Shown piece after piece: positions 14,609 to 45,830 of a DNA stretch of 49,181 bases. This DNA is from Sulfuricella sp. (lineage in GTDB: Bacteria; Pseudomonadota; Gammaproteobacteria; Burkholderiales; Sulfuricellaceae): the NCBI GenBank assembly GCA_028714955.1, contig JAQTLK010000008.1:9843-59023 (forward strand). Reading direction: 5' to 3'. Position 1 is the first letter of the stretch; every line of letters starts with the position of its first letter. The position numbers and the translations under genes are program-made. The notes below the pieces were generated by a model, which made no database searches, was not told the DNA's origin, and saw only the letters and a program-made list of their open reading frames with translations.

Positions 14609-14670
14609 CATTATTTTCCTTAACAATGCCGATTGCGATTGACCGGCGGTTTTATACAGCAAAGAACCAT

Positions 14671-14714
14671 GCGGCTGAAAAAAATTGTGGATTATACACA
14701 GTTTTTTCAGCCGC
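14671..14714. repeat. 44-bp palindrome between rpsJ and rplC
   Basis: Outer arms GCGGCTGAAAAAA and TTTTTTCAGCCGC pair over 13 bp; inside them TGTG and CACA pair around GATTATA. In the transcript from rpsJ it would fold into a long hairpin. The -10 box TATAAT sits at its centre. Confidence 0.85.
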
Positions 14715-14719
14715 TACAA
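14691..14719 (-). promoter_or_regulatory. Candidate internal S10 promoter before rplC
   Basis: Minus strand: -35 TTGTAG (14714-14719), 17-bp spacer, perfect -10 TATAAT (14691-14696). Starting near 14684, the transcript would begin with the right-hand arm of the 44-bp palindrome and have a leader of about 75 nt before rplC. Its presence means rplC and the genes after it need not depend only on str read-through. Confidence 0.6.
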
Positions 14720-14735
14720 ACTTGCTTGATATTTA

Positions 14736-15044
14736 TTACAGTTTGATTTCTACATCCACACCAGCGGGCAGGTCCAGCTTCATCAAAGCATCGACGGTTT
14801 TGTCGGTCGGGTCAATGATGTCCATCAGGCGAAGGTGCGTGCGAATCTCAAACTGGTCACGCGAGGTCTTATTGACATGCGGAGAGCGCAACACGTCAAA
14901 ACGCTCGATACGGGTTGGCAGGGGCACAGGACCACGCACGACAGCACCAGTACGCTTTGCGGTTTCGACGATTTCAAGTGCCGACTGATCAATGAGACGA
15001 TAATCGAAGGCCTTGAGGCGGATACGGATTTTTTGGCTTTGCAT
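14736..15044 (-). CDS. rpsJ: 30S ribosomal protein S10 (NusE)
   Basis: 102 aa. [19 protein letters not shown] opens it; [20 protein letters not shown] is diagnostic. It works in the 30S head and, with NusB, in antitermination. An in-frame start 15 codons upstream is rejected because it runs into the hairpin between tuf and rpsJ. TTTGGA lies upstream. Confidence 0.97.
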
Positions 15045-15063
15045 ATTTTTTCCAAAGAGCGTA

Positions 15064-15087
15064 GCGGCGGGAACACCCTCCCGCCGC
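15064..15087 (-). promoter_or_regulatory. Strong hairpin between tuf and rpsJ
   Basis: GCGGCGGGA, six-base loop, TCCCGCCGC: nine perfect GC-rich pairs in the 53-bp gap. No T-run follows on the minus strand, so it looks more like an mRNA 3'-end stabiliser or processing site for tuf than an intrinsic terminator. Confidence 0.55.
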
Positions 15088-15097
15088 AATAATTGAA

Positions 15098-45746: not shown

Positions 45747-45830
45747 CAGTAAGGAGTGAAGAGTGAGGAGTGAGGAGCAAAGGCGGTGTGCGGTGATTTT
45801 ACCCCTCACTCCTCACTCCTCGCTCCTCGC
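45747..45830. repeat. Intergenic CTCACTCC-type element, copy 2
   Basis: Left arm GTAAGGAGTGAAGAGTGAGG with further GAGTGAGG units (45750-45778) pairs imperfectly with the right arm of CTCACTCCTCACTCCTCGC (45804-45830). TTTTACCCCTCACTCCTCAC matches copy 1 (31635 on) except for one base. It fills the glyS-gmhB gap and may end glyS messages. Confidence 0.75.

Follow-up and report, generated by a model that had tools for sequence, protein, structure and literature searches.

In Escherichia coli, the S10 leader exerts L4-dependent attenuation in addition to translational control. Control can also act during initiation, as for codBA and upp of the same species, where reiterative (slippage) initiation responds to UTP. 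For RNA polymerase, it was shown in vitro that the enzyme, after RNA release, can restart at nearby promoters (PMC6978380). Within the accessible part of the table of ribosomal-protein leaders in PMC7247131, no betaproteobacterial rplC leader is listed, and the only L4 motif upstream of rplC is archaeal. The open-access literature yielded nothing directly comparable for promoters nested in terminators. It also held no published description of a control element at the junction of rpsJ and rplC presented here, in agreement with the first-pass annotation of this DNA, which knew of none.

Architecture of the rpsJ–rplC spacer

The window, meaning the whole analysed stretch of 49,181 nucleotides, belongs to a draft genome of 2.49 Mb from Sulfuricella sp. 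Its closest named locus is that of a Sulfuricella denitrificans MAG, with an L3 identity of 85%. The genes fusA, tuf, rpsJ, rplC, rplD and onward follow each other on the minus strand, with rpsJ ending at 14736. The spacer behind rpsJ contains the arrangement TTGTAG-17 bp-TATAAT, also on the minus strand and within or touching a 44-bp palindrome (14671–14714), and a second hairpin that starts 23 bases downstream of the palindrome. The features are, in the direction of transcription:

14714–14719, minus strand: −35-like hexamer TTGTAG; most relatives retain its leading TTG, likewise 17 bp from the −10 hexamer
14702–14714, minus strand: outer 5′ arm GCGGCTGAAAAAA, found only in read-through RNA
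14686–14700, minus strand: inner stem TGTG/CACA (TGTG 14700–14697, CACA 14689–14686) with the loop TATAATC
14691–14696, minus strand: −10 hexamer TATAAT in the hairpin loop (TATAAT, TATACT or TACAAT in relatives)
14684–14686, minus strand: expected start site of transcripts from the internal promoter, placed solely by its distance from the −10 hexamer
14671–14683, minus strand: outer 3′ arm TTTTTTCAGCCGC, part of read-through RNA and also of RNA from the internal promoter
14628–14647, minus strand: second hairpin GCCGGU-CAAUCGCA-AUCGGC with the loop CAAUNGNA, adjoining the rplC ribosome-binding site
14617–14621, minus strand: rplC Shine-Dalgarno sequence AAGGA, followed by the tandem start codons ATG ATG of rplC (14611–14606)

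The outer arms form a perfect 13-bp stem with 18 nt between them, and a small internal loop (C / A,U) divides the inner from the outer stem. In relatives, the inner stem comprises 5 bp, is richer in G+C and is immediately followed by the U-tract. Perfect inverted repeats of at least 13 bp with a gap of at most 30 occur three times in the window as opposed to 0.05 times per shuffled window, and the fold reaches a z of −4.2 on the plus strand. Hence, the first-pass annotation, which had described TATAAT 17 bp from TTGTAG in a 44-bp palindrome, was correct, the inverted-repeat count being far above chance. Its distinction between two RNAs likewise holds: read-through RNA contains the whole hairpin and RNA born at the promoter the 3′ arm only. 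Pairing of the U-run of the promoter-born RNA with the rplC Shine-Dalgarno sequence is weak and appears in few minimum-energy folds. As a separate observation, the neighboring tuf–rpsJ spacer (15044–15097, minus strand) harbors a hairpin of 10 bp (GCGGCGGGAGGGTGTTCCCGCCGC) that is rich in G+C and lacks a U-tract.

TTGTAG matches TTGACA at three of six positions, and a strict promoter scan of the window did not return the TTGTAG/TATAAT site among its calls. Since a crude promoter score did not distinguish the spacers from shuffles, the case for a promoter rests on conservation. Herein, the exact TATAAT lies 17 bp from the upstream hexamer, in the 16–18 bp range of sigma-70 hexamers, and the pair is conserved in relatives. 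In our reading, the spacer holds a sigma-70 promoter that lies inside the operon and serves the S10 genes led by rplC; its activity we infer from the sequences. The T-run where transcription should begin does not vary within the Sulfuricellaceae-like family, which also fits a control of initiation: a start at or just before the six to seven T could permit slippage and render rplC UTP-responsive, the T-run being kept for this purpose. The start position would suit such a mechanism, but a terminator U-tract explains the T-run equally well, and in other Betaproteobacteria the run often has just 3–4 T. Slippage control is hence regarded as highly improbable.

Conservation and recurrence of the hairpin around the promoter core

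The comparison comprised a first set of 109 betaproteobacterial rpsJ–rplC spacers and a second set of further spacers from the same order. In the Sulfuricellaceae-like family, 15 of 17 genomes carry the promoter core, with one of the three −10 forms listed above, within the hairpin, and most show TTG 17 bp upstream of the −10 hexamer (TTG-17-TATAMT). Two family loci (L015 and L018) have a short spacer without promoter and hairpin, and both are absent in Gallionellaceae, which makes the element dispensable.

The arms were aligned for 14 genomes of the family and G048, a member of another family of the same order. In this alignment, made by hand and thus biased toward structure, 188 of 210 cells are paired, compared with 162 ± 4.8 upon permutation of the 3′ arms among species, a control that preserves the register but not sequence relatedness. 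Two-sided differences between the arms number 253 versus 60 ± 29 after permutation, with none of 5000 permutations being as good. G-U accounts for 58% of the non-Watson-Crick cells, where 41 ± 3% is expected. An alignment of related spacers had been suggested by the first-pass annotation, which counted a lack of conservation of the arms or hexamers in close relatives, together with a missing transcript start, against its reading; the alignment instead reveals compensatory arm changes, and both the arms and TTG-17-TATAMT are conserved.

Covariation and the excess of G-U favor selection on an RNA hairpin over a DNA-binding site. An operator bound by a dimeric repressor over the −10 hexamer, or a cruciform extruded by supercoiling, would agree with a palindrome that is perfect as DNA in the window and centered on the −10 hexamer. 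However, the half-sites drift between species while pairing persists with over-represented G-U pairs, and the genome lacks a second copy of the site, unlike what a regulon would show. Hence, this explanation is very unlikely. Whole-genome pattern counts gave roughly one palindrome core for each genome of the family, and a dispersed palindromic repeat (REP/MITE) was rejected on this ground. A palindrome that arose by chance or from a mobile repeat, with TATAAT being coincidental, can point to other palindromic repeats that do enter these spacers in relatives. Against this stand the covariation, the single copy, the conserved −10 hexamer and spacing, and the enrichment over controls, so that such an origin is barely credible. 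A DnaA box (TTATACACA, 14693–14701, plus strand) was also discarded, being lost in relatives with TATACT.

Intergenic inverted repeats that form long hairpins from heptamer-like units (GAGTGAG..., GTGAAC..., GTAGC...) were seen elsewhere, at positions 45752–45830 of the window and at L021, L101 and L212; L040 and L108 contain similar ones with other units. By their appearance, the heptamer-unit repeats could be short palindromes of one family that are mobile or expanding.

The layout recurs across Betaproteobacteria with unrelated arms. Of the −10-bearing rpsJ–rplC spacers, which are not phylogenetically independent, 27 of 47 (57%) place the hexamer in a local hairpin at ≤−5 kcal/mol and 17 of 47 (36%) at ≤−8 kcal/mol; with shuffled flanks, these shares are 8% and 2%. 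Other intergenic TATAATs, taken from 400 kb of each of three genomes, lie in such a hairpin in four of 38 cases at ≤−5 kcal/mol and in none of 38 at ≤−8 kcal/mol (Fisher, about 1e-5). These three 400-kb controls reject the layout as a general feature of strong promoters in these genomes. Ten Azoarcus/Methylophilus-type genomes contain 12 copies of the core CGGTATAATCCG; judged by position, each genome seems to have one at the rplC site, with two further copies in all. The arms vary by clade, for example GGGTCGGATATAATCCGACCC, GGCCGGTATAATCCGGCC and CGCGAGTATGATCTCGCG, which suggests that the layout arose or was rebuilt repeatedly.

At the same junction, Neisseriales-type loci (L025, L028 and L063) and several gammaproteobacterial ones (L188, L189, L195, L225 and L227) have a promoter-like site with a strong hairpin behind it, in most cases accompanied by a U-tract. 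The strong intrinsic terminator before rplC in the Neisseriales-type and similar loci is likely an attenuator within the operon. At another kind of gene, the tRNA-Arg promoter at G005 C1:802925 (L124), TATAAT is enclosed in a long imperfect palindrome with a partly similar surround.

A possible terminator or processing element

With an approximate form of the d'Aubenton-Carafa score, 30% of the spacers contain a predicted intrinsic terminator (score >0) as opposed to 0.9% of shuffles, and many of these terminators have the −10 hexamer in their loop. Spacers scoring above 0 include two of the Sulfuricellaceae-like family (L005 and L009) and Azoarcus-type loci. In the family, U4–U7 directly follows the inner stem. 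For the window itself, the scan found no canonical intrinsic terminator: the score is low, and the inner stem has 4 bp before a mismatch. In addition, the outer arms, situated past the U-tract and not needed for termination alone, clearly covary. Because of the weak, low-scoring inner stem and these covarying outer arms, termination by the hairpin is uncertain in the window; in relatives, their sequences make it likely.

The main rival to termination is an ordinary internal promoter whose hairpin serves as an RNase III site or protects the 3′ end of the tuf–rpsJ mRNA. Herein, no termination would take place, which would accord with the weak terminator formed by the inner stem in the window, with the outer arms kept by covariation beyond the U-tract and with the very high stability of the full read-through hairpin (−30 kcal/mol in G005). 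The U-tract that invariably follows the inner stem in the family and the strong terminators at the same spot in other Betaproteobacteria speak against processing or stabilization without termination, and we consider it possible but rather doubtful.

The second hairpin and the proposed mechanism

Each of the 109 spacers in the first set, whether or not it has the palindrome, carries the loop CAAUNGNA on a 6-bp stem. Among 37 diverse sequences, 99.5% of its cells are paired and two-sided changes occur at all six pairs; the two-sided cells number 53 versus 14.7 ± 4.1, and slid registers fail. Hence, the element at 14628–14647 is what is expected of a ribosomal-protein leader, namely a covarying RNA fixed beside a ribosomal-protein gene. 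Most spacers of the second set carry the hairpin as well, with L216 and L220 being without it and L207 and L223 having a variant loop.

In four genomes of the family, the rplC site is the top match of a covariance model by a wide margin. In a class-wide scan, for which the rplC site was called by comparing positions, it ranks first in G109, G121, G120, G146, G125, G161 and G140, all from families outside Betaproteobacteria. Gammaproteobacteria with short rpsJ–rplC spacers are mostly without the hairpin; the short spacer L226 has it. Rfam contains no family that matches the CAAUNGNA hairpin, and a known RNA family or the described L4-type S10 leader was dismissed for lack of an Rfam match. The 23S rRNA of two relatives has no stem-loop equivalent to CAAUNGNA, although mimicry need not involve the loop.

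The first-pass annotation had proposed the palindrome as a target of L4 control moved inside the operon. The palindrome makes a poor L4 target; the leader-like feature of the spacer is the CAAUNGNA hairpin, which is present even where the palindrome is missing. The idea of control within the operon survives for this candidate, which by position and covariation appears better suited to autogenous control than the palindrome.

At the level of sequence, the promoter core and its hairpin are conserved with covariation, the layout recurs and the second hairpin is conserved. Promoter activity, termination or processing, and the ligand are what we infer from this. In the preferred reading, an internal sigma-70 promoter, whose −10 hexamer is the hairpin loop, would give rise to another transcript, which covers the S10 genes beginning with rplC. 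Polymerase arriving from str–tuf–rpsJ would copy both arms, so that the upstream RNA could fold into the hairpin, which would attenuate or end this transcript or protect the 3′ end of the tuf–rpsJ mRNA. RNA born at the promoter would begin at about 14685 without the 5′ arm and escape the hairpin. On both RNAs, the CAAUNGNA hairpin would lie next to the rplC ribosome-binding site, and this hairpin is the likelier target of feedback by L4 or L3. We hold this combination of a promoter nested in a read-through-only hairpin with a CAAUNGNA leader hairpin to be a reasonably probable explanation of the whole locus, and both hairpins probably serve to separate and tune ribosomal-protein transcripts.

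A more tentative extension is a relay. Polymerase from str–tuf–rpsJ would be stopped by the hairpin with the −10 loop, released and restarted there, leaving EF-Tu and S10 transcriptionally separate from, but physically coupled to, the remaining ribosomal-protein genes. The rplC transcript would then be tuned by an undescribed CAAUNGNA leader common to Betaproteobacteria and some Gammaproteobacteria. We think this relay on the whole unlikely; restart at a promoter in a terminator loop would represent an extreme case of nearby restart. In either form, the locus suggests that many Betaproteobacteria control the main ribosomal-protein operon after rpsJ and not before it. The element is compact, as promoter and hairpin use identical bases. 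The locus further provides a natural system in which to test polymerase recycling between neighboring operons, and its CAAUNGNA hairpin is a strong candidate leader RNA of a ribosomal-protein gene for which Rfam has no entry.

Promoter, hairpin and terminator are each of a known kind; as far as the tools used here show, their full overlap, its recurrence and the companion hairpin are apparently undescribed. The region resembles the E. coli S10 leader in that genes of the S10 operon are preceded by a promoter, a hairpin with a U-tract and a leader structure that is conserved, and feedback on ribosomal-protein synthesis would be the likely purpose. It differs by lying after rpsJ, by enclosing the −10 hexamer in the hairpin and by matching no Rfam family. 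An intrinsic terminator with an internal promoter between operons likewise unites hairpin, U-tract and promoter in one intergenic region, whereas here they share the same bases: the loop is formed by the −10 hexamer, and the inner 3′ arm fills the interval from this hexamer to the start. Like the ribosomal-protein leader candidates of PMC7247131, the hairpin at 14628–14647 is short, covarying, located in cis and placed beside a ribosomal-protein gene.
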